A stretch of DNA of 64,000 nt from Acidobacteriota bacterium. Lineage in GTDB: Bacteria; Acidobacteriota; Vicinamibacteria; Vicinamibacterales; JAKQTR01. The stretch is taken from positions 62,001-126,000 of the forward strand of contig JAPKZO010000006.1 of NCBI GenBank assembly GCA_026393755.1. Direction: 5' to 3'. The first letter of the stretch is position 1, and each line of letters opens with the position of its first letter. Position numbers and translations under genes: made by a program. Under the pieces are notes generated by a model. That model had not been told where the DNA came from and made no database searches. It worked only from the letters and a program-made list of their open reading frames with translations. Of this stretch, positions 15,925-36,592 are shown piece after piece.

Positions 15925-16349
15925 GTCGTCCTCGGCTCCTGCTCATCGACGACGAAGACGCCTTCCGGGAGACGGTCGACAAACTCCTGACCTTTCGCGG
16001 CTTCGACGTGTCGACCGCGTCGGATGGAGCGCAAGGCATGCGTGCGGTCCTGCGCGGCGGGATTGAGATCGTGATTCTCGACGTCAAGATGCCCGGCCTC
16101 GACGGAATCGAGACTCTTCGCGAGCTCAAGCGAATCCAGCCGGACCTCGAGGTCATCATCCTGACCGGGCATCTGCTGAAGTCGACCGAGCAGGAAGGGC
16201 TGAAGCTCGGCGCATTTGCCTACCTGACCAAACCGTGCACCGTTCCAGACCTGGTCTCCGTCATCGGGGCTGCGCTCGAGACGCGCGCCCGGCGTCTTGC
16301 CGGCCCGGACTCGCCTCCTGAGCTGCCAGGGTCGCGACCGGCTTCATGA
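15921..16349 (+). CDS. Receiver-only response regulator
   Basis: A 142-residue receiver domain with DDE at residues 10-12, phospho-acceptor Asp54 in VILDVKMPG, the conserved Thr in LTGH and Lys104 in YLTKP. The last 25 residues are a Pro-rich tail with no output domain. It overlaps the histidine kinase before it by four bases and the PEP-synthase-like gene after it by four bases. Coupled translation of kinase, receiver and phosphotransferase-like protein suggests that the receiver controls the latter directly. Confidence 0.92.
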   Translation: MSRPRLLLIDDEDAFRETVDKLLTFRGFDVSTASDGAQGMRAVLRGGIEIVILDVKMPGLDGIETLRELKRIQPDLEVIILTGHLLKSTEQEGLKLGAFAYLTKPCTVPDLVSVIGAALETRARRLAGPDSPPELPGSRPAS

Positions 16350-18919
16350 AGACCGTCTGGTCGCGGCTGGTGACGTTTCTCGAGATCATCGGCCTCCGTC
16401 GTCCTGAAGAAATCGACTACGACAGCCGGCTCGCCGAGCTGAGACTCCGCTACTTCCACTTCCGCGACCTGCTGGCTGCCAATCACGACCTGCTGGAGGT
16501 CGTGGCGGCGATGGAGTTGAGACTTCAGCGCCGCTCTGTTGTCACCCTCCGCTGGATCCGCGCGCAGGTGGTGACCGCCCTGACGTCAGCCCACCGGATG
16601 GTCGCAGCCCTCAACGCCGTGTCGGGCCGGCGCTATCAGGCGCTCGATCTGGTGCTGACCCGTCTGGAACAGCGGCTGTCGTCGTGCCGCGCCATGACCG
16701 AACCCGACCTGCCTGATGATTGGATCATTCCGCTCGACCGGCTCGATCGATCCGCGCTGCCGCTGGCAGGCACCAAGATGGCGGTGCTCGGTGAGATCCG
16801 GAACGTGCTGAGGCTGCCCGTGCCCGATGGCTTCGTGGTGACGGTCGCGGCCTTCCATCGCATGATCGAAGCGGCCGGCGTGGCCGACGCGAACCCGCGC
16901 GGAGCGGGCGACCCAGGAGGCGACGACCCGTCGACCGGGGCCGAAGGGGCACGACAACGGATCCTTAACACGCTCGTGCCGGAGGAGATGGCCCAGCGTG
17001 TTCTTGCCGCCCACCAGGCGCTGGCGCCAGGCGGCGAAGCGCCGCCGCTGGCCGTGCGATCGAGCGCCGTCGAGGAGGACTCTGAGTTCTCGCTTGCCGG
17101 ACAGTACCTGACGCTGCTGAACATCCGTCAGCCGGATCTCATCGACGCCTACCGCCAGGTGGTGGCCAGTGCCTTCGGCGCCAACGCGGAGTGCTATCGC
17201 CGCGAGATGGGGATCGACGAGTCAGACGTGGCGGTCGCCGTCGGGTGTCTCGTACTTGTGGAGCCGCTCGCGAGCGGCGTCGCGTTCTCCACCGATCCGA
17301 TCGGCACCCACCACAACAGCGTATTGATCCATGCCGGCTGGGGACTGGGACCGTCAATCGTTGACGGTCGCATCGATCCCGACGTCCATGTCGTCTCCCG
17401 AGACGACGGCCGTATCACCACGCACGTGAGCCGGAAGGTGGTCCGCCTTACGAGCCATCCAGCCGGCGGGGTCGTCGAGGACGAAGTGCCTCCCGGCGAC
17501 CAGGAGCGCCCGTGTCTGACTGAGCCGGAGGTCGCGACACTTGCCAGGTGGGCCATCGAACTGGAGCGGCACTTCGGCGGTCCCCAGGACGTCGAATGGG
17601 CCCTCGATCGCGACCGCCGGCTTGTCATCCTGCAAAGCCGCCCGGCAACGGCCCAGGCCGCGGCAACCTCCCGGGACGTGCCTGCGGTGAAGGGGGCCGG
17701 CCTGTTACTGGAAGGAGGGATGACCGCCTCTGCCGGCGCCGGCGCGGGTCCCGTCGTGGCGGCGCTCCCCGACGACAACCTCGACGATTTTCCCGAGGGC
17801 GGCGTCCTGGTAGCCGTCCAGTCCAGCCCGAAGTTCGTCCGCATCATGCGCAGGGCCTCTGCCATTGTCACCGACGTCGGCAGCGCCATCGGCCATATGG
17901 CGTCGCTTTCGCGCGAATACGGCGTGCCTACCATCGTAGGCGCCGGGACGGCGACCGCACGGCTGGCGCCGGGCAGCATGGTGACCGTGGACGCCACGCG
18001 GTGCCGCGTATACGCGGGCCGCGTGGACGTACTCCTGGAGCAGGCACCCGCTCCACCGGCGGCAAGGCCCGAGAGCCGGGGGCATTCGGCGCTGGAAGAG
18101 ATCGCCCGGTTCGTCGTGCCGTTGACGCTGATCGACGTGCGTGATGACTCGTTTACGCCGATGGCCTGTGCCAGCCTTCACGATGTGGCCCGATACGTAC
18201 ACGAACGCTCGTTCAGGGAAATGTTCGGCCTCAGTACGCTTGTCGGCGACTTCCACGCCCAATCTCCCATCCTCGACGTCTTTCTGCCCATTGACCTCTA
18301 CATCATCGATCTCGGCGGCGGGTTGGCCGCACCGCCCGGGGCGCGGAAGGTGCGACGGAGGGAGATCGTGTCGGCGCCGTTTGCCGCGCTCGTCGATGGG
18401 ATGCTGCATCCCTCGATCCCGAGGTTCGGGCCGCGAGCCATCGACACGAAGGGCCTGCTCGATGTCTTCATGCGCCAGGCTCTGGCCAACCCCCACGAGG
18501 ACGACACGTTGCGGGATCCCTGCTACGCGATCATCTCGGACCGATATGTGAATCTGGCGACCCGGGTGGGCTTCCACTTCAGCGCGGTCGACGCCTATGC
18601 CGGCGGCGTGGCGAGCCAGAACTCGGTCTCGTTCCGTTTCAAAGGGGGTGCCGCCGGAGAGGTGCGTCGCCGGCGTCGCGTCGAGGCCATCGCGCTGATC
18701 CTCCGCCACCTGGGTTTCTCGACCAACGTCACCGCCGACCTGGTCGATGCCAACTATCGCCGCCACGATCTTGCGGATACGCTTCGCGCCGTGGAGATGC
18801 TGGGTCGCCTGTTGCAGTTCATGCGCCAGATGGACGCGGCCATGACCTCAGACGAGCGTGTGGCCGAAGTGGCTGACGACTTCCTTGCCGGCCGGTACGG
18901 ACCCGACACGCCACCCTGA
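16346..18919 (+). CDS. PEP-synthase/PPDK-like phosphotransferase with unrecognised C-terminal domain, 1 of 3
   Basis: An 857-residue protein. Residues about 1-130 form a helical N-terminal region. An ATP-grasp domain of the PEP synthase/PPDK type follows (about 140-435), with AVRSSAVEEDSEFSLAGQ and QDVEWALDRDRRLVILQSRP. A swivelling phospho-His domain lies at about 455-575, with GSAIGHMASLSREYGVPTIV and the catalytic His517. The family's C-terminal PEP/pyruvate TIM barrel is absent. Instead there are about 280 residues conserved only with the two paralogues here, including RVGFHFSAVDAY and SFRFKGGAA. The protein may move phosphate from ATP (giving AMP) to an unknown acceptor, as rifampicin phosphotransferase does. 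Enzymatic activity is inferred. Confidence 0.85.
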   Translation: MKTVWSRLVTFLEIIGLRRPEEIDYDSRLAELRLRYFHFRDLLAANHDLLEVVAAMELRLQRRSVVTLRWIRAQVVTALTSAHRMVAALNAVSGRRYQALDLVLTRLEQRLSSCRAMTEPDLPDDWIIPLDRLDRSALPLAGTKMAVLGEIRNVLRLPVPDGFVVTVAAFHRMIEAAGVADANPRGAGDPGGDDPSTGAEGARQRILNTLVPEEMAQRVLAAHQALAPGGEAPPLAVRSSAVEEDSEFSLAGQYLTLLNIRQPDLIDAYRQVVASAFGANAECYRREMGIDESDVAVAVGCLVLVEPLASGVAFSTDPIGTHHNSVLIHAGWGLGPSIVDGRIDPDVHVVSRDDGRITTHVSRKVVRLTSHPAGGVVEDEVPPGDQERPCLTEPEVATLARWAIELERHFGGPQDVEWALDRDRRLVILQSRPATAQAAATSRDVPAVKGAGLLLEGGMTASAGAGAGPVVAALPDDNLDDFPEGGVLVAVQSSPKFVRIMRRASAIVTDVGSAIGHMASLSREYGVPTIVGAGTATARLAPGSMVTVDATRCRVYAGRVDVLLEQAPAPPAARPESRGHSALEEIARFVVPLTLIDVRDDSFTPMACASLHDVARYVHERSFREMFGLSTLVGDFHAQSPILDVFLPIDLYIIDLGGGLAAPPGARKVRRREIVSAPFAALVDGMLHPSIPRFGPRAIDTKGLLDVFMRQALANPHEDDTLRDPCYAIISDRYVNLATRVGFHFSAVDAYAGGVASQNSVSFRFKGGAAGEVRRRRRVEAIALILRHLGFSTNVTADLVDANYRRHDLADTLRAVEMLGRLLQFMRQMDAAMTSDERVAEVADDFLAGRYGPDTPP

Positions 18920-18931
18920 TGACTCCCCCCG

Positions 18932-19327
18932 TCAGCGCGGCAGGTGTTCGAGCAGCGTCTTTTTTTCCATCGCGGTCTGGATCCGCTCGCACAACTTCTC
19001 GACGAGCGCCGGCTTCAGCAGATAATCGACCGCGCCGTGGGTCATGGCGTCGACCGCCGTCGCCATCTGCGCCTGGCCGCTCAGCATGATCACCGGGAGA
19101 ATCGGGTGGGTGCTGCGAATGTGGTCGAGCGTGGTCACGCCGTCCATCCCGGGCATCCGCTGATCCAGCACGACAACGTCGTAGTCGTGGATGCCGAGTT
19201 CCTCGAGCCCGGCAGCCCCGTCGCGGGCCACGCCAACCAGATAGCCGCGCGCGCGGAGCACCTTCGACATGGAATCGAGGAAGACGGTCTCGTCATCGAT
19301 CAGTAGCACACGAACCTGGCTGGACAT
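18932..19327 (-). CDS. Receiver-only response regulator
   Basis: A 131-residue receiver domain with DDE at 11-13, phospho-acceptor Asp55 in VVVLDQRMPG, LSGQAQ for the switch Ser and Lys105 in YLLKP. The ATG at 19327 follows AAGGAGCG; a longer frame reaching 19651 overlaps the upstream gene and is unlikely. It is the last gene of a minus-strand operon of histidine kinase, receiver, PEP-synthase-like protein and this receiver. It ends 12 bases from the convergent PEP-synthase-like stop. With no output domain, it is a second candidate partner for the same kinase or enzyme. Confidence 0.9.
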   Translation of the reverse strand: MSSQVRVLLIDDETVFLDSMSKVLRARGYLVGVARDGAAGLEELGIHDYDVVVLDQRMPGMDGVTTLDHIRSTHPILPVIMLSGQAQMATAVDAMTHGAVDYLLKPALVEKLCERIQTAMEKKTLLEHLPR

Positions 19328-19416
19328 CGCTCCACGCTCCTTCCCCAGGCTCCTGCCTGGTCTCCAGAACTGCGTTCGACCCGTTGGCCGCGAATCACAC
19401 GGCTTTGGCGCGCCCG

Positions 19417-22068
19417 CTACGGTTCGCGCGAGGCCGAGGCCTGCCCGGACGGCATCTCGCGGCCAGGTGGCTCGAACAGGTAGTTCTCCGCGAAAAACGC
19501 ATCGACGTACCACGCAATCGGCGTGCCGGGTCCGAGGCGCATGTCGAGCTGGCGTGTGGCGACGATCAGACGTCCGATCTGGTCGATCCGCCGGAGCGTC
19601 GCATCGCGCGGGAACTTCAGCAGTCGAGCGTTCACCAGATCGCCGTTCCACTCGATCTGAAAATCCAGACGCCTGAGAATCTCGCCGATGAGTTCACACC
19701 GCCGGGCGCGACGCCCATCGTCGGCGGCACCGCCCTTGAACCTGAAGCTGACGTAGTTGCGGGACCGCGACTCGGAGCAGTACGCGTCGACGGCGGCGAA
19801 ATGGTACCCGACGCGCGAACTGAAGTTGCAGTACGCCTCGGCGACGATGGCGTAGCTCCGGTCGCCGAGCCGCCGCTGTCCGTCGCCTCCGCCTGGTGAG
19901 AGCATGGATTCGGTGGCGACCGCCAGAAACCCCGACATGGAGATCGGCCGGGGCTCCCACCAGCGCAGTTCCGGGTGCATCATGCCTTGCAGCAGGGCGC
20001 GCATGGGCTCGGAGCGGATGTCCTCCAGTCGCACGCACGGGCTCGGCGCCCGGCGCAGTCCGCCTCCAATATCGATCAGGTACACCAAGTAAGGCAGCCG
20101 CTCGTCCAGCCTGGTCGCCTTCTCGCTCGCGCTGGTGACGCGGTCGCTCATGCGAAACATCTCTTCGAACGCCTTTTCGTGGACGAACCGCGCGATGTCA
20201 TGAAAGCTCCGGCACTCGCGCGGGTGGAACTGCGGGCTGCGGGGATCGGTCAGCGCCAGTGGCACGATCACCGTGGCCACCTCGCGCAGAATCGTATGAA
20301 TCGGGGTTCCCACGACGCTCCGCCGTTGGGCCCCGCCGCTGGAGGCCAGCAGGCGTTCGACGCGCCCCTCATACACTCCGCCGCCGTTGGCGTCCACGGT
20401 GACGACCACACCCTCGGCGAGCATCCGCGTGGCGTTGCGTGTGTCGAGCACCGCGGGCACGCCAAATTCCCTCGCCAGTGACGCCATGTGCCCGGTCGTG
20501 GCGCCAATGTCGGTCACAATGGCGGAGGCACGGTCCATGACCTTGACGAACTGCGGAGACGAATGCCGAGTCACCAGAACCGCGCCGTCCGGAAACGTTG
20601 CGGGGTCGTCTCTCTCCGTGAACCGATGGACCACGCCGCTTCCGCAGCCCCGCGACGCCGCGGCGCCCGTGAGCAGGAGTCGATGGCCATCGATCTCGCC
20701 GTCCAGCACCGCCGCCGGTCGCTCCTCGGCGGTGGTCTGCAGGGGCCTCGTCTGCAGCAGCACAAACTGTCCCTGTCGGTCGAGAGCCCACTCAATCTCC
20801 TGAGGACAGTGGTAATGCGATTCGATCTGCCCAACCAGGCGGGCCAGGTCCTGCACTTGGACGTCCGACAGGCTGAAATGCTGGCAGTCTCCCGCCGGGA
20901 CCGCCGTGGGCGCTACGCCCCCGCCGGCCGACGGGTCGATCCGCGTCTCTTTCCAGCCCAGACGCCTTGTCAGGATTGTCGGATCTCCGGTCCTCGACAC
21001 CACCCACGTGTCCGGACTGACAGAGCCGCCCACCGGACCCACACCGAGACCCCACGCTCCGCTGATCAGCATCGTGTCGGACGCGGCCCGATTGGGATCG
21101 ACCGAGCAGGCGACACCGCTGGCAACGGCGTCGACCATGGTCATGCAGAGCGCACCCATGGGGAGGTCGTCGTCCGGGATGCCGTGCACGCCGCGGTAAA
21201 ACATCGCCTGGGGAGAGTACAAGCTGGCCACGACCTCCTTGTAGGCCTCGATCAGTCCCGCCCGATCGACGTTGAGCACGCTGGTGTACTGGCCGGCAAA
21301 CGACATCTCTCCGTCTTCGCCAACCGCGCTGGATCGCACCGACACGCGAGGCTCGTACCCGATGGTCCGACTCAGCTGGTCGTAGCCTGCGAGAATCGCC
21401 TCCGCCAGTTCCGGGGGCAGATCGCTCGACATGATCCTCTGTTGGGCCTGCTGGCTGACCTCGTGCAGGCCGTTGGGGTCTTCAGGTTCAAGATTCAGCT
21501 GGAGAGCCCGGATGTCATTGCCCAACCGCCGGTGGTCCAGGAAGGCGGCGAACGCATCGGTGGACACCGCGAACCCATCGGGGATCGGCAGTGGCACGCG
21601 GTTCCTGATTTCGCCGATATTCGCGCTCTTCCCGCCGACTCTCGCGGCTGACGAGCCGTCGACCTCCGACAGCTGATAGACCAGACGCGGCGGGCCTGGC
21701 GAGGCCGGCCGCGTGCGGTCCAGGATGGCTTCCAGGCGCTTCTGCATCGACGCGAAGGCCGGGTGCAGCTCCTGGTACCGTCGCGATGAGAGCTTGTCGA
21801 GGCAGATGATCATCCGGTAGGTGTGCGTCGCGCAGACGACGGTTCGATTCCGGAGGTACGCCATGCCAAACGCGGTATCACCCTCGAGTTTGCATTCGAT
21901 GTCGGCGATGGTCTCCAGGAGCTCGTCGTTGGACGTCGTCAAGTCCTTGAAGGTCAGGTAGTCCAGCGACAGCGAGGCTCTCGAGTCTTTCCGGACCTCG
22001 ACCGGACGCCACCGATCCCGTCCGGACAACCTGCGTATCCAACGCCGTACGGCGATGCCCTGCCACAC
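19417..22068 (-). CDS. PEP-synthase/PPDK-like phosphotransferase with unrecognised C-terminal domain, 2 of 3
   Basis: About 883 residues from a GTG at 22068, just after the receiver stop. The exact start is uncertain, and the longer frame to 22215 lies inside the receiver gene. After a helical N-terminus come an ATP-grasp domain (VGGKSANIGEIRNRV, VSVRSSAVGEDGEMSFAGQY, QEIEWALDRQGQFVLLQTRP) and a phospho-His domain with GATTGHMASLAREFGVPAVL and His527. The C-terminal 280 residues share RVGYHFAAVDAYC and YVSFRFKGGAA with the paralogues and have no TIM barrel. It lies between two receiver genes on the same strand, the strongest hint that receivers and this protein work together. Substrate is unknown. 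Confidence 0.83.
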   Translation of the reverse strand: MWQGIAVRRWIRRLSGRDRWRPVEVRKDSRASLSLDYLTFKDLTTSNDELLETIADIECKLEGDTAFGMAYLRNRTVVCATHTYRMIICLDKLSSRRYQELHPAFASMQKRLEAILDRTRPASPGPPRLVYQLSEVDGSSAARVGGKSANIGEIRNRVPLPIPDGFAVSTDAFAAFLDHRRLGNDIRALQLNLEPEDPNGLHEVSQQAQQRIMSSDLPPELAEAILAGYDQLSRTIGYEPRVSVRSSAVGEDGEMSFAGQYTSVLNVDRAGLIEAYKEVVASLYSPQAMFYRGVHGIPDDDLPMGALCMTMVDAVASGVACSVDPNRAASDTMLISGAWGLGVGPVGGSVSPDTWVVSRTGDPTILTRRLGWKETRIDPSAGGGVAPTAVPAGDCQHFSLSDVQVQDLARLVGQIESHYHCPQEIEWALDRQGQFVLLQTRPLQTTAEERPAAVLDGEIDGHRLLLTGAAASRGCGSGVVHRFTERDDPATFPDGAVLVTRHSSPQFVKVMDRASAIVTDIGATTGHMASLAREFGVPAVLDTRNATRMLAEGVVVTVDANGGGVYEGRVERLLASSGGAQRRSVVGTPIHTILREVATVIVPLALTDPRSPQFHPRECRSFHDIARFVHEKAFEEMFRMSDRVTSASEKATRLDERLPYLVYLIDIGGGLRRAPSPCVRLEDIRSEPMRALLQGMMHPELRWWEPRPISMSGFLAVATESMLSPGGGDGQRRLGDRSYAIVAEAYCNFSSRVGYHFAAVDAYCSESRSRNYVSFRFKGGAADDGRRARRCELIGEILRRLDFQIEWNGDLVNARLLKFPRDATLRRIDQIGRLIVATRQLDMRLGPGTPIAWYVDAFFAENYLFEPPGREMPSGQASASREP

Positions 22069-22069
22069 T

Positions 22070-22465
22070 TCAACTGGCCCCGTCCGCTTCCTCAATGGTC
22101 TTCTTCTCGAACGCCTCTTCGACCTTGACCAGGACGTCTTCGATGTCGACAGGCTTGAGCAGGTAGTCGGACGCGCCGAGCCGGATCCCTTCGACGGCCG
22201 CCGTGATCGAGGCATTGCCGCTCACGAGCACGACCCTCACCGAGGGGTGCAGTCGCCGGATCTCTTTCAGCACTTCGAGTCCGTCCATGCCCGGCATCCA
22301 TACGTCGAGCAACACGACGTCAACTGGCCGCGTGCGGAGCAGTTCGAGTGCCTGCGGTCCGCCAAGGGCGCCTTCCACCTCGAACCCGCGGGCTGTCAAC
22401 CGTTTCGAGAGCGTCTCGACGAACCTTGCCTCGTCATCGACCAGCAGCAGTTTCACGACTCTCAT
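22070..22465 (-). CDS. Receiver-only response regulator
   Basis: A 131-residue receiver with phospho-acceptor Asp54 in VVLLDVWMPGMDG, VSGNAS for the switch residue and Lys104 in YLLKP, ending in a charged tail. The ATG at 22465 has GGAGGAG just upstream. It overlaps the histidine kinase before it by about 32 bases and ends two bases before the PEP-synthase-like start, so the three are translationally coupled. It has no output domain. Confidence 0.92.
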   Translation of the reverse strand: MRVVKLLLVDDEARFVETLSKRLTARGFEVEGALGGPQALELLRTRPVDVVLLDVWMPGMDGLEVLKEIRRLHPSVRVVLVSGNASITAAVEGIRLGASDYLLKPVDIEDVLVKVEEAFEKKTIEEADGAS

Positions 22466-23474
22466 GGGCTCCTCCTGCACTCGGGGGTGACACGCCCGGC
22501 CGGGCCGCCGGCAGTGTCACGTGGAACACGCATCCCTGCCCCGGCGCGTTGTCGAGATCGATCCGGCCGCCGCTTCGCTGAACAATCCACGTGCTGATCG
22601 TCAGTCCCAGGCCGGCGCCCTGTTCCTGGGCCTTGGTGGTGAAGAACGGTTCAAAGATCCGCCCGAGCAGATCCGGAGCGATGCCCGGTCCGGTATCCGA
22701 GATGCTCGCCCGCACCGCATCGCCCGATCGCGCGGTCGTAATCGTCAGCGTGCCGCCGGCACCCTTCATGGCATCGAGAGCATTCTTCATCAGATGGAGC
22801 AGCACTTGTCGCAATTCGGCGGCGTGTCCCTGCACCAGCGGCAACGTGCCATCGAGATGCTTGATCACACGGACGCCGGTCGCGACCAAATCGGTTTCGA
22901 CGAGGTACAGGGTCTTGGTCAGCAGAGTGTTGATGTCGACCTGGCCCGGCGGCTCCTCGGGGTCCCGGGTCCAGGTGAGCATTCGGCGGGCAATCTCTCG
23001 GCAGCGGCCGATCTGCATCCGCAACTGCTCGACCGACGCCGAGAACTCGCTGCGGGTCACCGCGTCGTCCGACTCCGCGCCATTGAGGAGATCCTGCATC
23101 CAGCCCGCCTCTTCGTTCATGATCGCCAGCGGGTTATTGAGGTCGTGTGCGATGCTGCAGGACGCCTCACCGAGCGACGCCAGTTTCGACAACCGCGCGA
23201 ATTCCTGGTAGAAGGCATCCCGCTGCCGCACCACTTCTCTCAGTTGGCGTGAGAGACGGATGGCCACCAGCGTCGAAGCCGCGGCAGAGGCCACGCACCC
23301 CGCAAGCGCGAGCGGCATCAACCGGCTTTCCGACGCGGTGCCCGCGAAGAAGGTCAGCATGACGACGAGCAGGAAGAGCGCCAGCGACGGCACGACCGAC
23401 GCCCAGATGACGTTCCTGACGTCGGGGTGAGTCGGCGACCGCCATAGGTTGGAAGATCGGATGTCGTTCACCAC
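22434..23474 (-). CDS. Sensor histidine kinase with two membrane helices and no large sensor
   Basis: A 346-residue kinase. Two hydrophobic helices (about residues 26-46 and 53-73) are separated by only a short loop, so there is no periplasmic sensor domain. It may sense the membrane itself or a partner protein. The H-box is CSIAHDLNNPLAIMN with His110. The ATPase domain has HLMKNALDAM, DTGPGI and GAGLGLTIS. The start is uncertain: GTG at 23474 or 23471, after AGCGGGG, or TTG at 23477. It opens the operon of kinase, receiver, PEP-synthase-like protein and receiver. A divergent TSUP operon lies upstream. Confidence 0.9.
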   Translation of the reverse strand: MVNDIRSSNLWRSPTHPDVRNVIWASVVPSLALFLLVVMLTFFAGTASESRLMPLALAGCVASAAASTLVAIRLSRQLREVVRQRDAFYQEFARLSKLASLGEASCSIAHDLNNPLAIMNEEAGWMQDLLNGAESDDAVTRSEFSASVEQLRMQIGRCREIARRMLTWTRDPEEPPGQVDINTLLTKTLYLVETDLVATGVRVIKHLDGTLPLVQGHAAELRQVLLHLMKNALDAMKGAGGTLTITTARSGDAVRASISDTGPGIAPDLLGRIFEPFFTTKAQEQGAGLGLTISTWIVQRSGGRIDLDNAPGQGCVFHVTLPAARPGVSPPSAGGAHESRETAAGR

Positions 23475-23523
23475 CAACCCCGCTGTTCAGAGGGCAGGAA
23501 TCCACTGGCACCCCAGTGCCAAC

Positions 23524-23553
23524 TTGACGGCGGGGGCAAGTCACGTCTAGATT
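23524..23553 (+). promoter_or_regulatory. Sigma-70-like promoter for the third TSUP operon
   Basis: TTGACG (23524-23529), an 18-base spacer and TAGATT (23548-23553), about 75 bases upstream of the ATG at 23630. It lies in the 155-base divergent gap shared with the histidine kinase on the other strand. Confidence 0.45.
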
Positions 23554-23629
23554 ATCCCTGCTCCTAGGCGCGTGTCGATGCCGTCGGGAACCTGCCTCCG
23601 TTCCCGAGCGACTTCCAGAGGGACAACAC

Positions 23630-23932
23630 ATGACTCGCCGTGCGATCGCCCGATCGATGACAGCGCTCGTCGTACTGGCGCCATGGCTGCTCGTGACCGC
23701 GACGATGGCTGCTGGCGGCGAGAGCCAGGGCGCCCTGGTTCACGTGGCCGACACCCGGCACCTGACCGGTTTCAATCTGTACTTCGCCAACCTCTACAAC
23801 GCCGACCGGCTGTTGTTCACCACCATGACGGTCGGCCTGACCGGGCTGCTCGGACTCAGTCTCGGCGTGCTGATGGACATCATTGTGGGAACCATCGGTC
23901 TCGATCTCGGCAAACGCGAAGCCAAGGAGTAG
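23630..23932 (+). CDS. Small membrane protein upstream of TSUP permease (100 aa)
   Basis: It starts MTRRAIARSMTALVVLAPWL, which is either a signal peptide (cleavage near MAAGGES) or a signal anchor. A second hydrophobic helix lies at about residues 64-86, and the tail is Lys/Glu-rich. GAGGGACA precedes the ATG. The TSUP start follows nine bases after the stop, so it is probably a permease partner. It has no sequence likeness to the partner gene at 11494 and no family that I recognise. Confidence 0.75.
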   Translation: MTRRAIARSMTALVVLAPWLLVTATMAAGGESQGALVHVADTRHLTGFNLYFANLYNADRLLFTTMTVGLTGLLGLSLGVLMDIIVGTIGLDLGKREAKE

Positions 23933-23941
23933 GCGGCAGTC

Positions 23942-24967
23942 ATGCTCGAATGGTTCACCGTTGTGCTTCCGATCTCCGGAGTGGCGATCAACGCGCTGCT
24001 GCTCGTGTTGCTCGGAGTCGCCGTCGGCGTGTTGGGCGGGTTCTTCGGCATGGGCGGCGCGTGGATGGTGACACCCGCGCTGAACATCTTCGGCTTCCCG
24101 ATGCCCTTTGCCGTGGGTACTGACCTGTGCCACATGGCAGGCAAGTCGATTATCTCGACACGACGCCATGCGAAGTTCGGCAACGTCGACATGAAGCTCG
24201 GCCTCGCGATGCTGGCGTTCGACGTGGTCGGGATCGAGTGCGGCGCCAGGCTGGTCATGCTGCTCGAGCGGTTTGGCCTCGCGGGCCCGGTGATCCGGTG
24301 GGTGTACGTCGTCCTCCTGTTTCTGATCGCCTGGCTCGTGTTCTACGATTACTTCAAGGACCGGTCGATTCGCCGCCGCGCCGCGCTCGGTCTCGCGCCC
24401 GCCACGCCGGCCCTCCAGTGGCATGTGGCGCTGCACAAGATCAGACTCCGGCCCATCATCCGCTTCGATGTCGCGCAGGTGGAGTGTTCGTTGTGGCTGC
24501 CTGCCGCCGTCGGGTTCACCGTCGGAGTGCTGGCCGGGTTCCTCGGGATCGGGGGCGGCCTGCTGATGATGCCGGCCCTCGTCTATCTGATCGGGGTGCC
24601 GACGTTCGTGGCGGTTGGCACCGACTTGTTCACGGTGATGCTCTCGGGATTCTATGGCGCCGCGACGTACTCGATAAAGGGGCGCGTGGAGATCCTCGCT
24701 GTCCTGTTGATGCTGGTTGGGGCGGCGCCGGGGGCCCAGGTCGGGACGATTGCCACCAAGTACATTCGCGGATACGGCATCCGGCTCATCTTCGGCATTA
24801 CGGTCGTCTGCGCGATGGTCTCCGTCATCCTCAAGCAGCTGAACTACAACACCGCGGCGGCGTGGACGGTGATGATGGCCGTGTCGGTGATCACGGGCGT
24901 CGTCGTGGTCGGCATGGTCAGGGGGGCCGCGCGCGAGCTGGCCGCGCGCAAGGAGGTGAGCCCATGA
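23942..24967 (+). CDS. TSUP (TauE/SafE) family permease, 3 of 4
   Basis: A 341-residue inner-membrane protein. The half-repeats open with LGGFFGMGGAWMVTPALN and LAGFLGIGGGLLMMPALV. The first half has DLCHMAGKSIISTRRHAKFGN, matching the motif of the TSUP at 12064. The cytoplasmic loop between halves (about residues 138-172) is basic. It should export or import a sulfur oxyanion or organic anion; direction cannot be read from sequence. It overlaps the next gene by four bases (ATGA), so that gene is translationally coupled. Confidence 0.9.
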   Translation: MLEWFTVVLPISGVAINALLLVLLGVAVGVLGGFFGMGGAWMVTPALNIFGFPMPFAVGTDLCHMAGKSIISTRRHAKFGNVDMKLGLAMLAFDVVGIECGARLVMLLERFGLAGPVIRWVYVVLLFLIAWLVFYDYFKDRSIRRRAALGLAPATPALQWHVALHKIRLRPIIRFDVAQVECSLWLPAAVGFTVGVLAGFLGIGGGLLMMPALVYLIGVPTFVAVGTDLFTVMLSGFYGAATYSIKGRVEILAVLLMLVGAAPGAQVGTIATKYIRGYGIRLIFGITVVCAMVSVILKQLNYNTAAAWTVMMAVSVITGVVVVGMVRGAARELAARKEVSP

Positions 24968-25260
24968 ACCGGGTAGCCTGCGTGATTGCGCTCATCGCCG
25001 TCGCGTTCGTGCCGGCCTGCGTGGCCGTCGCCCCTGTCGTGCAGGGCAAGGTCGTCGCGGTCGAGCAGGGAGGCGGCGTGCTGCGGGTACAGGATGAAGA
25101 GGCGCCCGACCGTGCGCCTCTGGTGCTCGATATCACGAGCGCGGAGATCGGCGCCCCGCCACGAGCCGGCGACGTCGTTCGGATTGTCTACCGCGCGGGC
25201 GCGTCATCGAACCAGGCCCTGCGCGTGATGAACGTCGGCCGGCACCAGGCGAACCAGTAG
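24964..25260 (+). CDS. Small predicted lipoprotein or exported protein
   Basis: A 98-residue protein. The N-terminal hydrophobic signal (VACVIALIAVAFVPAC) ends in a lipobox-like Pro-Ala-Cys. The mature part is a compact beta-rich domain with VVQGKVVAVEQGGGVLRVQD and GDVVRIVYR, reminiscent of small OB-fold-like periplasmic proteins. It is coupled to the TSUP gene by a four-base overlap, so a periplasmic role next to the permease is likely. No family was recognised. Confidence 0.7.
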   Translation: MNRVACVIALIAVAFVPACVAVAPVVQGKVVAVEQGGGVLRVQDEEAPDRAPLVLDITSAEIGAPPRAGDVVRIVYRAGASSNQALRVMNVGRHQANQ

Positions 25261-25360
25261 CCCCGTCGCACCAGGCGTCCCGGCCCGCACACCGCGCTCC
25301 GCCTCAAACCACCGGGCGTTTGTGCCGGTTATCGGGGCTGGCAGGGTGCCCCCTCTGTCC

Positions 25361-25440
25361 GTCATTGCGGAGAACGCCGGAACGGCGAAGCGGGTCTGAA
25401 GGCCCGGCCTCCAGACCCCGGCTTTCGCCGGGGTGACGAG
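25361..25440. repeat. REP-like extragenic palindrome in a convergent gap
   Basis: The element begins GTCATTGCGGAGAACGCC and ends with an eight-pair hairpin ACCCCGGC/GCCGGGGT (25415-25434, four-base loop) followed by GACGAG. This style of GTCATT...GTGACGA element is typical of dispersed bacterial extragenic palindromes. It lies between two convergent operons and has no T-run, though it could still act as a bidirectional stop. Only one copy was noticed in the window. Confidence 0.45.
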
Positions 25441-25448
25441 ATTGCGCT

Positions 25449-26273
25449 TCAGGGGACAAGCGCAGTCGAGTCTTCGAACATCACTCGCGTGCCATAGCGA
25501 ATGCCCCTCACCCCCGCGACCCGGCGAGCTCGATCGATCACGGCGTTGACGAGCATGGGATCGGCCAGTTTGCCTTCAATCTCCACCAGCCCCGCCTTGG
25601 CCCTCACTTCGACCTCAGCGTAGGAGGTGCCGCGGTCGGCGGCCAGCGTGGCGGCGACCTGGCTCATCAGGAGCAGGTCCATCATCGTCTGGCGGCTCGA
25701 ATCATCGGCCTGGAACTGCGGTCTGGCCGCCAGAGCCACCACTGCCCCGCACGCGCCCTCCAGGTCGACGTTCTCGAGGTTGACGACGAGGTCGTAGAGA
25801 CTCGGATCCTTCCAGTCGGCGCCGTACAAGAACTCGGTCCAGCGCGAACGTTCCTTGTCCACCCGCTCGATGTACGCCGCAGCCTCACGCTCGTCGAGTC
25901 CCATGCGTTTCCGGAGCCGATCGATCCTGAAATCGAGCGGGGCGATCAGTCTCACTCTGATGACGTGCCGCACACCCTTGAGCAGGAAGTGGCCTGCGTG
26001 TCCGTGGTAGACGAGGTTATCGTGAGCCGCCCGTTCACAGAGCGCCATCCGCACAAACGCCAAGTAGAGCCGCCGGTCGGGCAGAAACCGATCGACGAGC
26101 CGAGGGCTGCTCTCCAGGGCCCTGGAAAGAGCGGCCTCCGAGACGCCTGAGACCTGGGCCGCGTCGGCAACGATTTCCCGGCTGGCGACGCTATAGCCCA
26201 GCTGTTTGTGGAGACACTCGGCCAGGTCGCGGCCTCCGCTGAACGTGCCTCGCGAAATCGTGATGATCGACAT
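25449..26273 (-). CDS. Cytidylate-kinase-like P-loop protein with C-terminal BON-like domain
   Basis: A 274-residue paralogue of those at 1059 and 7973. It starts at ATG 26273 with AGGAGG upstream; the frame stays open to 26651, but that part runs under the divergent kinase. It opens SIITISRGTFSGGRDLAECL, then VYHGHAGHFLLKG, FLYGADWKDPSLYDLVVNLE, and the tail KAGLVEIEGKLA with VAGVRGIRYG, a BON-like pattern. It is divergent from the histidine kinase at 26371, with 97 bases between them. In the first module the same two families sit in one operon, so the pairing recurs. Confidence 0.8.
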   Translation of the reverse strand: MSIITISRGTFSGGRDLAECLHKQLGYSVASREIVADAAQVSGVSEAALSRALESSPRLVDRFLPDRRLYLAFVRMALCERAAHDNLVYHGHAGHFLLKGVRHVIRVRLIAPLDFRIDRLRKRMGLDEREAAAYIERVDKERSRWTEFLYGADWKDPSLYDLVVNLENVDLEGACGAVVALAARPQFQADDSSRQTMMDLLLMSQVAATLAADRGTSYAEVEVRAKAGLVEIEGKLADPMLVNAVIDRARRVAGVRGIRYGTRVMFEDSTALVP

Positions 26274-26312
26274 CTGGAGCCTCCTGTGCAGCCGACGCGT
26301 CACCGAATCTGT

Positions 26313-26342
26313 TTGTCGGGATGGTCGCCCGACGAATAGAAT
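26313..26342 (+). promoter_or_regulatory. Sigma-70-like promoter for histidine kinase at 26371
   Basis: TTGTCG (26313-26318), an 18-base spacer and TAGAAT (26337-26342). Transcription would begin near 26349, after the alternative ATG at 26341, which supports the start at 26371. Confidence 0.4.
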
Positions 26343-26370
26343 GTCGGTGGCTTCGGGGACGTTACCACAC

Positions 26371-27972
26371 ATGAGGCCGCAACACGAGACGCCAGGCCGA
26401 ACGCCGCCCGGGTGGTCCGCTCGCGGGCGGAACCGCCAGGGTGGCGGTCCGTCGAACGGGCAACTGAACGGGCGCGACTCCCAGACGGCAGCCGACATTG
26501 CGCTGCTGCGGCGTCCGAGCTTCAGCATCCGCAAGAGGATTGCTCTCAGCTTCCTGCTGTGCTTCCTGGTGATTGGCGGCGTCACGCTGGCTTCGCTGGT
26601 GACGCTCGGGCGTATCGAGCAGAAGCTCCACTTCCTCGAGGTGGCCGACACCTACACCAATCAAATCCAGCAAGCCCGCCGGTTCGAGAAGAACTACCTG
26701 CTGTATGGGACCGGCCTGGACAGCGCCCTCGAGTACGCGCACGAGGCGCGCGCCACGCTCGGGGGCGCGTCTGCCGAGTTCGCGCGCATCGTCGGCCAGA
26801 AGCCGTACGGGGAGATGCGCCAGCACCTCGAACGCTATGAGCAGCTGCTGCTCGGGCTGGCAGGTGTGCCCACAGGCGCGGCGGGTGCCCGGCGCAGCAC
26901 GCTTGAAGCCGAGATTCGGCAGCATGGGGCGGAGATGGTGGCCGCGGCACTGCGGGTGGCTGAGGCCGAACGGCAAAGCGTCCGGTCGATGCTCCGGCTG
27001 TCGAAGCAGATGCCGCTGGCGGCGCTCGCGGTGCTCCTCGTGTTGATTGTGTACATCACCAATTTCCTGGCGCGCCAGCTGCTCGCGCCGCTGGGGCGGA
27101 TGGTGAACACGGCTGGCCGCATCGCCAAAGGGGACTTCACGCCGCTCCAGCCGACCCGGCGATACCGGGATGAATTCACCGGCCTCGCGCTCGCCATCAA
27201 CCGCATGATGCAGGAACTGAATCACCGGCAGGAGGCGCTCGCCGAGGCGCAGAAGCTCAGGGCCATCGGGACGCTGACCGCCGGTATCGCGCATGAACTC
27301 AACAACCCCATCAACAACATCTCGCTGACGGCAGAGGCCATGCTCGAAGACCACCAGACGCTCGGCGACGAGGATCGTCTCGATCTGTGCCGGGATCTGC
27401 TGACGCAGACCGAACGCGCCCAGGGCATCGTCCGCAACCTGCTCGATTTCTCGCGGCAGCGCGACGTCCATATGGAGGTGATTGACCTCGCGGGGCTGCT
27501 GCAATCGACCGTCAGGCTCGCCGGCAACCAGATCAAGCTCGCGGGCGCGCGCCTGGAACTGGCCGTGCCGGACGGCGTGCCGGCCATTCGCGGGGATCGC
27601 CAGCAACTGTCCCAGGTGTTCGTCAACCTCTACCTCAACGCGCTCGATGCGATGGGGTCGGACGGGATCATCCGCGTCTCGGTCGGCAGCGACCCCGAGC
27701 AGCCGGGCCGCGTGCAGATCGACGTGAGCGACAATGGAGCCGGCATTCCGGCCGACGTGCTGCCGTTTGTCTTCGACCCGTTCTTCACCACGAAGGCGGC
27801 CAAGGGTACAGGCCTGGGGCTGTCGGTGAGCTACGGCATCGTCTCGAAGCACGGCGGGGACATCCGTGTGACCAGCACCCCGGGCCGCGGCACGACGCTC
27901 AGTGTGTTTCTGCCGAAAGCTCAGGCTCTGCCAGATGCCGAATCCGAGTCCGGGCTCGGCACCTCGGTGTGA
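26371..27972 (+). CDS. Sensor histidine kinase (HAMP, HisKA, HATPase)
   Basis: A 533-residue kinase of the same type as those at 1-1041 and 4968-6620. The start at 26371 is supported by the shared N-terminal pattern MRPQHETPGRTP (compare MTPQHPYPGAGRTP). Membrane helices lie at about residues 57-78 and 215-235. The helical sensor holds QQARRFEKNYLLYGTGL, HAMP contains RRYRDEFTGLALAIN, and the H-box is AGIAHELNNPINNI with His308. The ATPase domain has NLYLNALDAM, DNGAGI and GTGLGLSVS. The convergent receiver gene 36 bases downstream is on the other strand, so pairing with it is plausible but not shown by an operon. Confidence 0.92.
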   Translation: MRPQHETPGRTPPGWSARGRNRQGGGPSNGQLNGRDSQTAADIALLRRPSFSIRKRIALSFLLCFLVIGGVTLASLVTLGRIEQKLHFLEVADTYTNQIQQARRFEKNYLLYGTGLDSALEYAHEARATLGGASAEFARIVGQKPYGEMRQHLERYEQLLLGLAGVPTGAAGARRSTLEAEIRQHGAEMVAAALRVAEAERQSVRSMLRLSKQMPLAALAVLLVLIVYITNFLARQLLAPLGRMVNTAGRIAKGDFTPLQPTRRYRDEFTGLALAINRMMQELNHRQEALAEAQKLRAIGTLTAGIAHELNNPINNISLTAEAMLEDHQTLGDEDRLDLCRDLLTQTERAQGIVRNLLDFSRQRDVHMEVIDLAGLLQSTVRLAGNQIKLAGARLELAVPDGVPAIRGDRQQLSQVFVNLYLNALDAMGSDGIIRVSVGSDPEQPGRVQIDVSDNGAGIPADVLPFVFDPFFTTKAAKGTGLGLSVSYGIVSKHGGDIRVTSTPGRGTTLSVFLPKAQALPDAESESGLGTSV

Positions 27973-28008
27973 CGACGCCGGACCACGAGGCGTCGGCGGC
28001 GAGGCGTC

Positions 28009-28395
28009 TCACAACGATCGTACTGCCGCGATCCGCTCGGCAGCACGAGCGATGACGGCCCTGAGGTCGTCCATTTTGAACGGCTTCGCGATGAAGTCGA
28101 ACGCGCCGATGGTGAGGGCTTCGCGTGCCACGTCGACGGTGGCGTACCCCGTGATCATGATGACCAGGGGCTGCGGCGACCTTGACTGCGCATGGCGCAG
28201 CACCCCCATGCCATCGACGCCCTCCATGCGGATATCGGTGACGACGATGTCGTAGGCTCGCAGGTCGAGCAGACGAATCGCCTCGGCGCCCGTCTCGACC
28301 ACGTCGACGGTATAACCCGACTTCTCGAGCGCTGGTTTCAGCCGCTTGCCGACGATAGGTTCGTCGTCGAGGACCAGGATGGTCAGTTTCGGCAT
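28009..28395 (-). CDS. Receiver-only response regulator
   Basis: A 128-residue receiver with phospho-acceptor Asp54 in VVTDIRMEGVDG, ITGYATVDVAREA for the switch region and Lys104 in FIAKPFK. It is closest to the receiver at 6660, sharing the EEIVGKRL/EPIVGKRL start and the ATVDVAREA stretch. It lies 26 bases after the PEP-synthase-like gene on the same strand, so it is the last gene of the TSUP, TIGR02186, PEP-synthase-like, receiver operon. GGGGAGC precedes the ATG. Confidence 0.92.
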   Translation of the reverse strand: MPKLTILVLDDEPIVGKRLKPALEKSGYTVDVVETGAEAIRLLDLRAYDIVVTDIRMEGVDGMGVLRHAQSRSPQPLVIMITGYATVDVAREALTIGAFDFIAKPFKMDDLRAVIARAAERIAAVRSL

Positions 28396-28421
28396 GCCGT
28401 GCTCCCCTCAGGGTCGCGAGG

Positions 28422-30944
28422 CTACTCCGGATTGTGGCGTCCTTCGAAGAACGCTTCCGTGTACCGCGAGACCGTGTCTTCGTCATCCATCAGCGCGTCG
28501 ATCTGGCGCGTGAACCCAATGAGTCTCCCGATGATTCTAAGGCGCTCTTCGGTGGCCGTTCGCGGCAGTTTCCGCAGACGAGCCACCACGAGGTCGTAAC
28601 TCTGACGTGTCGCGAATCCCAACCGTTCCATGATGTCCCGGACCATCTCCGCGCGGCGCGTGCGGCGCTCGGCATCAGAAGCCCCGCCGACGAAACGGAA
28701 GTAGATATGGTTCTCCTCGCGGTTGCCGCTCACGAAGGCATCGACCATGGTGAAGTGGTAACCGACGTTCAGACTCAGATTCACGTAGTTCTCGGAGACG
28801 ACGGCCAGGTTTCTGTGCGTGTTCTGGAGGGCGCCTCCCGACATCGCGCTTGAGAAGAAGGTCGCAAGATCAACTCTGACCGGGCGCGTGCTCCATACCC
28901 CCGGTGTCGTCAGGCCGGCCCAGATCGCCAGCATGGGTACCGAGCGAATGGCGGCGGGCGTCACGGTCAACTGCGGAAGGCCGCCACCCACCGCCGTATC
29001 GAGCCCGCCACCGACATCGATAATGGAGAGTCCGATCGGCAGATCCGAAATCAGTCGCTTCGCCGATTCGACGCCCGACACGCGCCCCGAGGCCTGTAGA
29101 TCGATCAGCTCGTCGACGGCTGTCTCATGTGCGAAGCGGATGACGTCATGAATCGTCCGGCACCGATCGGCCCGGAAGTTGTCTGCGTGATGGTCGATGA
29201 GGTTCAACGGGGTGATCCGCCGAAGCAGCCGGCGCAGCAGTCGGTATTCCGGGGTGTCCTCGAGCCCGCTTTCCGTGACGAGCTGGTAGTCGATCAAAGG
29301 ATCGACGCGGCCGGCATAGACGGCATTCTCGTCAGCGTCGACCGTCACCACCTGGCCCTCGGTCAGGACGATCGACGCGGTGGCGCAATCCACCAGGGTC
29401 GGCACCCGAAACTCGCGGGCCAGCGCCGCCATGTGTCCGGTTGGCGCACCGATGTCCGTGACGATCGCGGCGCACTTCGCCATCGCGCTGACGAAGCGGG
29501 GCGAGGCCCTCCGCGAGACGAGCACCCCGCCGGCGGGGAAGGCGGCGAGGTCCGACTCCTCGGTCACATGGACGACTGGTCCCGACGCGACGCCCCGGCA
29601 GGCCACCTGTCCGCGTCGCCGCAGCAGCACCGGATAGGCGTTTAGGATCTCGGACAAGTCGCGCGGCTCAGAGGCCGGCGCACTGATCCTGAGCCGGCGC
29701 GCCTGAATGAGGTACAGCGAGCCGTCAGCGTCACGGGCCCACTCGATATCCTGTGGCTGCTTGAAGTAACGCTCGATGCGCAGCGCCATTTCGCTGAGCT
29801 CTCGAACGTCGGCGTCGGCGAGCTCCCGGCCCGCGGAGCCGTCGCCAGGCGGCTTCGGGGTCTGGTCACCCTCGGCGTGCCAGGCGGCGTCGCCGACGCC
29901 AGCGGCTGGCCGATATCCCAGTACCTCGTGCGGCGGCTGACGCGCGACGGAGTACTGCGCCATGTTCTGCTCGCCCTGCACGGCGCGGTTGGCAAGGCCT
30001 CGCGTGGCGCCCAGGAGCAACTCGCCCGATCCCGACCGATTCGGATCGACGGTGTAGAGGACGCCGCTGACCGTCGCGCGCACCATGCGCATGCAGGCCA
30101 CGGCCATCAGCCCACCCGCCGGCAGGCCCGAGGACGTCCGGTACGCGACGGCGTGGGGAGCATACAGGCTGGCCAACACCCGGCGATACGCGTCGATGAC
30201 CTCGGCTGGCTTCGTGTGGAGCACGGTCTCGTACTGCCCGGCGAACGACAGATCCTGATCCTCGCCGAGCGCACTCGAACGCACCGCGAGGCTCAGCTGG
30301 TCGGTCCGTCCGAGCGCGGCGACGGCCTTCCGGATCGCCGTGCCGATCTCCCGCGGGACTCTCGCATGCAGCAGACGCTCGGCAATCTCCAGGACGGCGG
30401 CGTCGTCGCCCCGGCTCAAGCGCAGCAGGCCATCCTCGATGACATTCGACAGGTGATTGGCTTCGATGATCCGGACAAACGCCCACGTGGTGATCGTGAA
30501 CCCGTCGGGAATCCGTACGTGCAGCCGGGTGTGGAGTTCGCCGAGGTGGGCGCTCTTGCCGCCGACGAGGTTGACGAGGCTCTCATCGATCTGCGCGAAG
30601 GGCACACAGAAGCTCGCCTTGGACACGACGGGACGTCCGGCCACGTCGCCCTGGATTTCGTCCCGGAGCCGATCGAGGACGGCGTAGAGCGCCGTGTGCT
30701 TCTGATCGGTGAGGCTGTTGAGATCGTGGACGGTCTTTCCAACCAGATCGAACAGCTGATGAATCGAGGTCTGAATGTAGGACCGATCGAACACGTATTC
30801 GCCGCTCTGCTTCTCGGCGAGATCGGCGAACAACTGGAGGACCCTGGTGTTGTTATCGAGAATCGCGCGAAAGCGGGCGAACAGCAGCCTGAAGGAAATC
30901 GATGGTCGTCGGCCGAAACGGAGCCACTTGCCGATGCGGGCCAT
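28422..30944 (-). CDS. PEP-synthase/PPDK-like phosphotransferase with unrecognised C-terminal domain, 3 of 3
   Basis: An 840-residue protein. A basic, helical N-terminus (MARIGKWLRFGRRPS) may lie on the membrane. The ATP-grasp domain has NLVGGKSAHLGEL, AVRSSALGEDQDLSFAGQYE and QDIEWARDADGSLYLIQARR. The phospho-His domain has GAPTGHMAALAREFRVPTLV with His504. The final 280 residues carry NVGYHFTMVDAFV and IYFRFVGGA, as in the paralogues, and no PEP/pyruvate barrel. It is encoded between a TIGR02186 protein and a receiver in the fourth TSUP operon, linking this enzyme family to permease and receiver once more. Confidence 0.85.
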   Translation of the reverse strand: MARIGKWLRFGRRPSISFRLLFARFRAILDNNTRVLQLFADLAEKQSGEYVFDRSYIQTSIHQLFDLVGKTVHDLNSLTDQKHTALYAVLDRLRDEIQGDVAGRPVVSKASFCVPFAQIDESLVNLVGGKSAHLGELHTRLHVRIPDGFTITTWAFVRIIEANHLSNVIEDGLLRLSRGDDAAVLEIAERLLHARVPREIGTAIRKAVAALGRTDQLSLAVRSSALGEDQDLSFAGQYETVLHTKPAEVIDAYRRVLASLYAPHAVAYRTSSGLPAGGLMAVACMRMVRATVSGVLYTVDPNRSGSGELLLGATRGLANRAVQGEQNMAQYSVARQPPHEVLGYRPAAGVGDAAWHAEGDQTPKPPGDGSAGRELADADVRELSEMALRIERYFKQPQDIEWARDADGSLYLIQARRLRISAPASEPRDLSEILNAYPVLLRRRGQVACRGVASGPVVHVTEESDLAAFPAGGVLVSRRASPRFVSAMAKCAAIVTDIGAPTGHMAALAREFRVPTLVDCATASIVLTEGQVVTVDADENAVYAGRVDPLIDYQLVTESGLEDTPEYRLLRRLLRRITPLNLIDHHADNFRADRCRTIHDVIRFAHETAVDELIDLQASGRVSGVESAKRLISDLPIGLSIIDVGGGLDTAVGGGLPQLTVTPAAIRSVPMLAIWAGLTTPGVWSTRPVRVDLATFFSSAMSGGALQNTHRNLAVVSENYVNLSLNVGYHFTMVDAFVSGNREENHIYFRFVGGASDAERRTRRAEMVRDIMERLGFATRQSYDLVVARLRKLPRTATEERLRIIGRLIGFTRQIDALMDDEDTVSRYTEAFFEGRHNPE

Positions 30945-30966: not shown

Positions 30967-31740
30967 CTAGTGTCCCGCGGGTCCCTTCTTGAAGAGCAGA
31001 CCGATCACGAGCCCAAAGCCGAGGGCGATGACGACCGACCCGAGGCCGTACAGGAACTTCCGCTCGAACGCCATGTAAGAAACGAATCTAGGAATTCCCA
31101 CGTACTGCACATCGAGGGCTCTGACGTCCTGCCGCAGCACCCCGCGTTCGCGCACCTGGAGCACGGCAACCCGGTACGTGCCGGTTGGCGCGGTCACGGG
31201 CCAGGGGATCTCGGCGTCGAATGTGCGCGAGGTCGGAGCCTGCTCAATGCGGACCGCCTGGTCGAAGACCGCCACCACGCCCCGCTGCTGCTTGAGCTTC
31301 AGATACTCGCGAAGCAGGAGATCCCGGTCCGGCACGTCGGGGTCTATCCGTGCCCGGCGGAGGAGTGCGTCGACGTCGAGCCGGTACGCTTCGATGTCGT
31401 CACGCCGGACCAGCGTTGCGACCGGCGCCTGGCTGGCCACCAGATGGAGACTCGGCACACCCGAGATCGCCACCTTGCCGGTGGTTGCCCACAGCGGCCC
31501 AAACCGTCCCTTGCGGTTGAAGTGTTCGTCTACGGTCCCGCCCGTGATGACCACGACGATGCTACAGCCCGGGTCAACCGTTCCGCGCACACGCACGGTG
31601 CCACCGTTGAAGAACGAATGAATCGACACCGGATTCGGGTCGATCGTGAAACGGTCCTCGCCGACTGCCACCGATGTGGCCGCAGTCGAGAGCAGCGCAA
31701 TCACCGTCAGGCCAGCGGCCAGCGCACTGCGTCGGTCCAT
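30967..31740 (-). CDS. TIGR02186/Alph_Pro_TM family membrane-anchored protein
   Basis: A 257-residue protein. An N-terminal signal sequence (SALAAGLTVIALLSTAATS) is followed by a periplasmic domain with PVSIHSFFNGGTVRVRGTV and VVVITGG, the pattern of the family TIGR02186. One membrane helix near the C-terminus (about residues 232-252) ends in a short basic tail. In other bacteria this family is commonly encoded beside TSUP permeases, as here: the TSUP stop is 15 bases upstream. It is probably a periplasmic accessory of the permease. It is followed by the PEP-synthase-like gene. Confidence 0.82.
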   Translation of the reverse strand: MDRRSALAAGLTVIALLSTAATSVAVGEDRFTIDPNPVSIHSFFNGGTVRVRGTVDPGCSIVVVITGGTVDEHFNRKGRFGPLWATTGKVAISGVPSLHLVASQAPVATLVRRDDIEAYRLDVDALLRRARIDPDVPDRDLLLREYLKLKQQRGVVAVFDQAVRIEQAPTSRTFDAEIPWPVTAPTGTYRVAVLQVRERGVLRQDVRALDVQYVGIPRFVSYMAFERKFLYGLGSVVIALGFGLVIGLLFKKGPAGH

Positions 31741-33849: not shown

Positions 33850-34290
33850 ATGCCAAGTTATGTCAACCCGGAGAAGTGCGACGGGTGCAAGGCGCTGGAC
33901 AAGACCGCTTGCCAGCACATCTGCCCCAACGACCTGATGGTCCTCAACAAGGAGACGATGAAGGCGTACAACCGCGACGTCTCGATGTGCTGGGAGTGCT
34001 ACAACTGCGTGAAGATCTGCCCGACGCAAGCCGTCGAGGTGCGGGGCTACGCCGACTTCGTGCCCCTCGGTGCCAACGTCACTCCTCTGCGCTCGACCGA
34101 CTCCATCATGTGGACGGTCAAGTTCCGCAACGGAATGGTCAAGCGGTTCAAGTTCCCCATCCGCACCACACCTGAAGGAAAGGCCGCACCTGATGGCGGG
34201 TTCGCCACCAAGGGAGATTTGAACAGCCAGGCGCTGTTCACCGAGCCGGCGTCAACCGGTCTGTCGGACGTGTTCACCCTCAGGACGTAG
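33850..34290 (+). CDS. aprB: Adenylylsulfate reductase beta subunit
   Basis: A 146-residue iron-sulfur subunit of the cytoplasmic APS reductase, which turns APS into sulfite and AMP. Two [4Fe-4S] clusters are bound by Cys10, 13, 21, 25 and Cys47, 50, 53, 57. The C-terminal tail that wraps around AprA is present. ATG 33850 follows AGGAGGTAGCGGA. It is the first gene of the island, with aprA 18 bases on, and electrons probably come from QmoABC encoded just downstream. Confidence 0.97.
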   Translation: MPSYVNPEKCDGCKALDKTACQHICPNDLMVLNKETMKAYNRDVSMCWECYNCVKICPTQAVEVRGYADFVPLGANVTPLRSTDSIMWTVKFRNGMVKRFKFPIRTTPEGKAAPDGGFATKGDLNSQALFTEPASTGLSDVFTLRT

Positions 34291-34308
34291 GACGAGAGGA
34301 GATAACAG

Positions 34309-36591: not shown

Positions 36592-36592
36592 C

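Follow-up and report, generated by a model that had tools for sequence, protein, structure and literature searches.

A dikinase-like protein family with an undescribed C-terminal domain in place of the pyruvate barrel is linked to sulfate respiration

The 64,000-nucleotide stretch of acidobacterial DNA analyzed here (the window) encodes three dikinase-like proteins in which a C-terminal domain of ~275 residues replaces the pyruvate/PEP barrel. They represent a variant of the dikinase family that is real, well conserved, and linked to sulfate respiration, and whose C-terminal domain is undescribed: in the literature, we found no description of the domain, or of a dikinase that is a signature of sulfate reducers, beyond that of Korte et al. 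(PMC4001038). PADLOC gave no match. In several phyla, the family goes together with dissimilatory sulfate reduction, and its Desulfovibrio member, recognized by synteny, sits in a locus controlling nitrate sensitivity, the property on which nitrate dosing to prevent oil-field souring relies. Identifying the acceptor would extend the dikinase family by a new chemistry and open the question of the nitrate cluster to direct tests.

Dikinase-like proteins in the window

The three proteins and their domains are located as follows.

16346..18919, + strand: dikinase-like protein 1, 857 aa
Protein 1, residues ~1-120: N-terminal helical domain
Protein 1, residues ~139-445: ATP-grasp
Protein 1, residues ~482-552: phospho-His domain, with the His517 codon at 17894-17896
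Protein 1, residues ~575-857 (about 18068-18916): new C-terminal domain
19417..22068, - strand: dikinase-like protein 2, 883 aa from the likely GTG start (the longest ORF, to 22215, is 932 aa)
Protein 2: His527 codon at 20488-20490, new C-terminal domain at about 19420-20319
28422..30944, - strand: dikinase-like protein 3, 840 aa
Protein 3: His504 codon at 29433-29435, new C-terminal domain at about 28425-29267

In Pfam, PPDK_N matched all three proteins (E 4e-64 to 2e-84), which bears out the original prediction that the ORFs at 16346, 19417, and 28422 keep the ATP-grasp, and the PEP-utilizers mobile domain also matched all three (E 2e-17 to 2e-19). The positions predicted for the phospho-His (His517, His527, and His504) were exact. 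For protein 2, the number 527 is obtained when translation starts from the GTG at 22068, which is the likely start; this GTG lies one base past the stop codon of the upstream receiver gene, and the longest ORF (to 22215) overlaps that gene. Both parts of a shared signature that had been predicted, V-G-[YF]-H-F-x-x-V-D-A and then F-R-F-x-G-G-A, occur in all three proteins. In the six frames of the window, the first part was found three times, and never outside these proteins.

A whole-genome search with PPDK_N revealed a fourth paralogue just left of the window (about G000:C6:57283-59430), ~20 kb left of protein 1, together with one normal PPDK and one distant ATP-grasp protein. Because the C-terminal domains of the other copies in the genome are 33-43% identical to that of protein 1, the shared signature reflects homology and not chance. 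In intact genes, the new C-terminal domain was always joined to the dikinase half.

The C-terminal domain

The original prediction also held that the last ~280 residues are not a TIM barrel, and proposed structure prediction and a fold search as checks, with a predicted TIM barrel as the refuting outcome; the results of both agree with the claim. At the sequence level, Pfam and NCBIfam recognized nothing past about residue 566 of protein 1, and the Pfam barrel family PEP-utilizers_C had no match in the three proteins; as a positive control, the genome's own PPDK matched this family at 2.6e-78. When the C-terminal domains of 100 members (the four copies and 96 others) were scanned with Pfam, no family appeared in more than 2. 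A sequence profile search of the PDB with the domain returned chance matches only (E 0.07 and above), and hhalign found no similarity to the barrel of the genome's own PPDK (probability 0.2%).

The AlphaFold2 model of the domain, based on a 100-sequence alignment, had a pLDDT of 86 and a pTM of 0.75. This confident alpha/beta model runs from long helices through four strands, a helix, and two strands to two helices. It lacks the alternating (alpha/beta)8 order and is not a TIM barrel. With the model as the query, Foldseek found nothing at E<0.001 (best E 0.025), and VIA-align gave a Z of at most 5.5. RecJ/AlaRS DHHA1-like pieces, the MotA C-terminal domain, and arginine kinase were considered as folds and rejected, the matches being weak and scattered and none spanning the domain. 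No clear fold relative of the domain was found, which does not by itself prove that the fold is new. In the full-length model of protein 1 (pLDDT 87), residues ~123-558 align to RPH, PEP synthase, and PPDK with Z values of 27-37, and the ~120 helical residues at the N-terminus and the C-terminal domain fall outside this structural alignment. We consider the replacement of the barrel in these dikinase-like proteins to be well supported.

Conserved residues

Residue conservation was scored over 81 full-length members. The ATP-grasp residues K144, R238, E417, Q430, and R432 were unchanged in 81/81, and the phospho-His was kept in 80/81, the exception (L083) having Tyr in its place. The two features that define the PEP-utilising dikinase superfamily, PPDK_N with its catalytic residues and the mobile domain with its His, are both present. 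In the C-terminal domain, H612, D613, R616, H619, H744, R778, and D830 are invariant among the same 81 members, and C608, E620, and D749 are nearly so; judged from the alignment, such conservation is typical of a functioning active or ligand site.

Distribution and sulfate respiration

A scan of GTDB genomes yielded 268 stretches encoding the domain. The best 80 of these belong to Desulfobacterota, Acidobacteriota, Ignavibacteria/Bacteroidota, Nitrospirota, and a small number of other groups, one source being a Chloroflexi bin. Members of the family number one to nine per genome. Two Nitrospirota members (L076:8237-11434 and L081:4757-7960) extend ~200 residues further at the C-terminus, and this extension has a borderline lectin-like match.

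Relatives of these proteins occur almost only in sulfate reducers. Among 297 genomes of Acidobacteriota, 13 encode the domain and 12 of these 13 have aprA, which was found at E<=1e-100 in only 19 of the 297 (the counts ignore kinship); the lone carrier without aprA is a genome that is 67% complete. Among 297 genomes of Desulfobacterota, to which Desulfovibrio piger belongs, the domain was present in 107, aprA in 119, and both in 101, giving an odds ratio of 161 and a Fisher p of 4e-52 in a calculation that ignores shared ancestry. Additionally, aprA was present in 22/22 genomes tested from the other loci. Eighteen of the Desulfobacterota have aprA without the domain, and the domain is therefore not required for sulfate reduction.

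In the window, the dikinase modules lie directly left of a stretch of sulfate-respiration genes.

33859..55214, + strand: aprBA, qmoABC, dsrAB, dsrM, dsrK, dsrP, sat

Relatives of the window's genome mostly lack aprA: among the 60 closest ones examined, it exceeded the cut-off in 3. Within the stretch, dsrA (42202-43345) is split over two frames, with profile positions 1-130 at 42202-42576 and 125-390 at 42560-43345, owing either to an assembly error or to a broken gene; dsrB, dsrM, dsrK, dsrP, apr, qmo, and sat look intact.

Gene neighborhoods

The following genes of the window accompany the dikinase genes.

12064..13146, + strand: TauE/SafE-type permease upstream of module 1
14041..15924, + strand: histidine kinase (dCache, HisKA, HATPase) directly upstream of protein 1's receiver
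15921..16349, + strand: receiver-only response regulator, its stop codon overlapping the ATG of protein 1
18932..19324, - strand: receiver-only response regulator downstream of protein 2 (ORF 18932-19651, domain in the C-terminal half)
22070..22480, - strand: receiver-only response regulator directly upstream of protein 2
22434..23477, - strand: histidine kinase upstream of the receiver at 22070..22480
23630..23932, + strand: small membrane protein of the ADTR..NLYN type, no Pfam match, adjoining TauE in many relatives
23942..24967, + strand: TauE/SafE-type permease
25449..26429, - strand: cytidylate-kinase-like protein with a BON domain
26206..27972, + strand: histidine kinase (HAMP) near module 3
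28009..28395, - strand: receiver-only response regulator 26 bp downstream of protein 3, its equivalent being fused to the dikinase in paralogue 4
30967..31740, - strand: Alph_Pro_TM membrane protein between TauE and protein 3
31756..32673, - strand: TauE/SafE-type permease, first gene of the TauE / Alph_Pro_TM / dikinase / receiver operon

Histidine kinases and receivers surround each copy, and these receivers carry no output domain. In addition, 5 of the 6 TauE genes of the 4.43-Mb genome sit in the 34 kb around the four copies. Cytidylate-kinase-like proteins, some with BON, also occur among the modules (2260-3801, 7808-8779, and 25449-26429), and there is one in the acidobacterial locus L072. 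A membrane-bound proton pyrophosphatase (H_PPase, E 6.5e-183) is encoded at 8863-11391, not far from the dikinase modules; sulfate activation yields PPi.

We counted neighbors at 75 loci with enough flanking sequence; the control was 152 kb of DNA lying farther away at these loci. TauE occurred within 8 kb of the dikinase in 42/75 loci (none in the control), a histidine kinase within 3.5 kb in 37/75 (five kinases in the control), and a receiver within 400 bp in 20/75 (nine receivers in the control). At 23/75 loci, kinase, receiver, and TauE were all absent from the vicinity, which shows that some members do without these partners; most of these loci belong to a single lineage, which accounts for the greater part of one clade. 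Module 3 of the window, paralogue 4, a second acidobacterium (L072), and a member of the Desulfobacterota (L122) share the order TauE, Alph_Pro_TM, dikinase, receiver. The dikinase of paralogue 4 has a receiver attached in frame, and a second receiver comes after it. That the receiver is fused in one copy and encoded by its own gene at the corresponding operon position in others is the best indication that the two proteins may work together. In Desulfovibrio piger and Desulfoferrobacter (L026:5523-8090 and L030:5476-7968), the gene ahead of the dikinase encodes a sigma-54 activator that weakly matches a Cache domain, rather than a histidine kinase.

The nitrate cluster of Desulfovibrio

Transposon mutants in the DVU0251-0245 / Dde_0597-0605 cluster resist nitrate (Korte et al. 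2014, PMC4001038). Addition of 100 mM nitrate made no difference to the growth of single DvH mutants in DVU0246 (PEP-synthase-like), DVU0247 (receiver), DVU0250, and DVU0251 (TauE), and G20 mutants of the cluster grew mildly poorly on thiosulfate (PMC4001038). Korte et al. suggest leaky entry of nitrate via a thiosulfate transporter, state that the native role of the locus is unclear, and give DVU0246 the ATP-grasp and mobile domains only, with the C-terminal domain unremarked (PMC4001038).

We identify DVU0246 as a relative of the dikinase-like proteins by synteny with a Desulfobacterota locus (L125) that has the order TauE, small protein, PhnD-like binding protein, histidine kinase, receiver, dikinase, dual-specificity phosphatase. 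The dikinase of that locus carries the new C-terminal domain and has a long, weakly placed branch in the tree. DVU0246 / Dde_0604 and this dikinase have the same domain calls and the same seven-gene order. At the Desulfovibrio-like loci L115-L118, the dikinase lies beside TauE and a small membrane protein of the ADTR..NLYN type; these loci were considered as the nitrate cluster and rejected, since they contain another paralogue. The window copies share TauE, kinase, and receiver with the DVU0246 type, but no PhnD-like or phosphatase gene was found alongside them among the genes checked, and they do not lie between receiver and phosphatase genes as the dikinase of the seven-gene cluster does.

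Possible mechanism and alternative explanations

The account that we favor, tentatively and at somewhat less than an even chance, is that of a two-component-controlled dikinase that passes phosphoryl from its ATP-charged His to a non-pyruvate acceptor in the new domain, tuning the uptake of sulfur oxyanions. Judging from the conserved residues, the ATP-grasp would phosphorylate the swivelling His from ATP as in PEP synthase. The place of the C-terminal domain in the chain and its invariant polar residues suggest that the His may then swing to this domain, where a putative non-pyruvate acceptor would sit in a pocket; HDxxRxxHE, GYH, and one invariant residue each of Arg and Asp would mark this pocket. 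The neighboring histidine kinase and receiver-only regulator would switch the dikinase in response to an outside ligand, and the operon and the fusion point to a receiver that gates the phosphoryl step, the direction of this control being presumptive. During sulfate respiration, the output would adjust how the TauE-type permease next to the dikinase takes up or handles an ion, probably a sulfur oxyanion, and the phenotype of the relatives would place this output at anion entry or handling. Against this mechanism, the leaky nitrate uptake suggested by Korte et al. (PMC4001038) needs no dikinase chemistry.

It is possible, if doubtful, that the protein is a signaling switch in which phosphorylation of the His is itself the signal and no small-molecule product is made. 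The C-terminal domain would then be a ligand sensor or docking surface, and the receiver or a partner protein would give or take the phosphoryl group, in the manner of PTS-like regulation. Such a role would suit the receiver-only partners, the receiver fused to paralogue 4, and the tight operon coupling, and the four paralogues here and up to nine per genome fit signaling better than one metabolic step. However, the C-terminal domain keeps several invariant His, Asp, and Arg residues resembling those of an active site, and we know of no phospho-His to receiver-Asp transfer in this dikinase family.

An enzyme that makes a phosphorylated metabolite, with the TauE and two-component link reflecting mere co-regulation with sulfate respiration, is in our judgment unlikely. 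All residues for ATP-dependent His phosphorylation are kept, one lineage has no two-component or TauE neighbors, and dikinase relatives act on varied acceptors, with RPH, phenylphosphate synthase, and PEP synthase making phosphorylated metabolites. Nevertheless, the divergent side-by-side paralogues and the receiver fusion point to regulation, and the published phenotype is one of ion sensitivity (PMC4001038). Quite improbable is an energy gauge, in which the charge of the His would read ATP against AMP plus Pi/PPi and would open or close sulfate/oxyanion uptake via the receiver and TauE. AMP and Pi or PPi are products of sulfate activation and APS reduction. Hardly credible is the reading that these are ordinary PEP synthases with a barrel diverged past recognition: the best whole-protein profile match is indeed PEP synthase, but it stops at ~566 and scores 306 against 598 bits, the predicted model is not a barrel, hhalign shows no similarity to the PPDK barrel, and the genome already has a normal PPDK.

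Comparison with known dikinases

PEP synthase (PpsA, 2ols) aligns with residues ~125-559 (Z 37, rmsd 5.1 over 377, 30% identity). Its profile match to the dikinase-like protein, the best over the whole protein, ends near residue 566, and the scores of 274-342 bits are below the NCBIfam equivalog cut-off of 598. Unlike PEP synthase, the window proteins lack the pyruvate/PEP TIM barrel and have their own C-terminal domain of ~275 residues and a helical N-terminal domain of ~120 residues. Similarly, the ATP-grasp and phospho-His are common to the window proteins and PPDK (1kbl; Z 28), whereas the PEP-utilizers_C barrel is found in PPDK only.

With the RIF_Ptrans_rph profile, the window proteins scored 174-219 bits, below the cut-off of 999 for a rifampin phosphotransferase, and their putative acceptor domain has no sequence match to the rifampin-binding domain of RPH. 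The domain order also differs: in RPH, the His domain is C-terminal with the rifampin-binding domain in between, whereas the window proteins follow the order of PEP synthase, with the His central. RPH (5hv1-5hv3) nevertheless resembles them in combining an ATP-grasp and a phospho-His with a non-pyruvate acceptor domain, and it provides a precedent for the swapping of acceptor domains.
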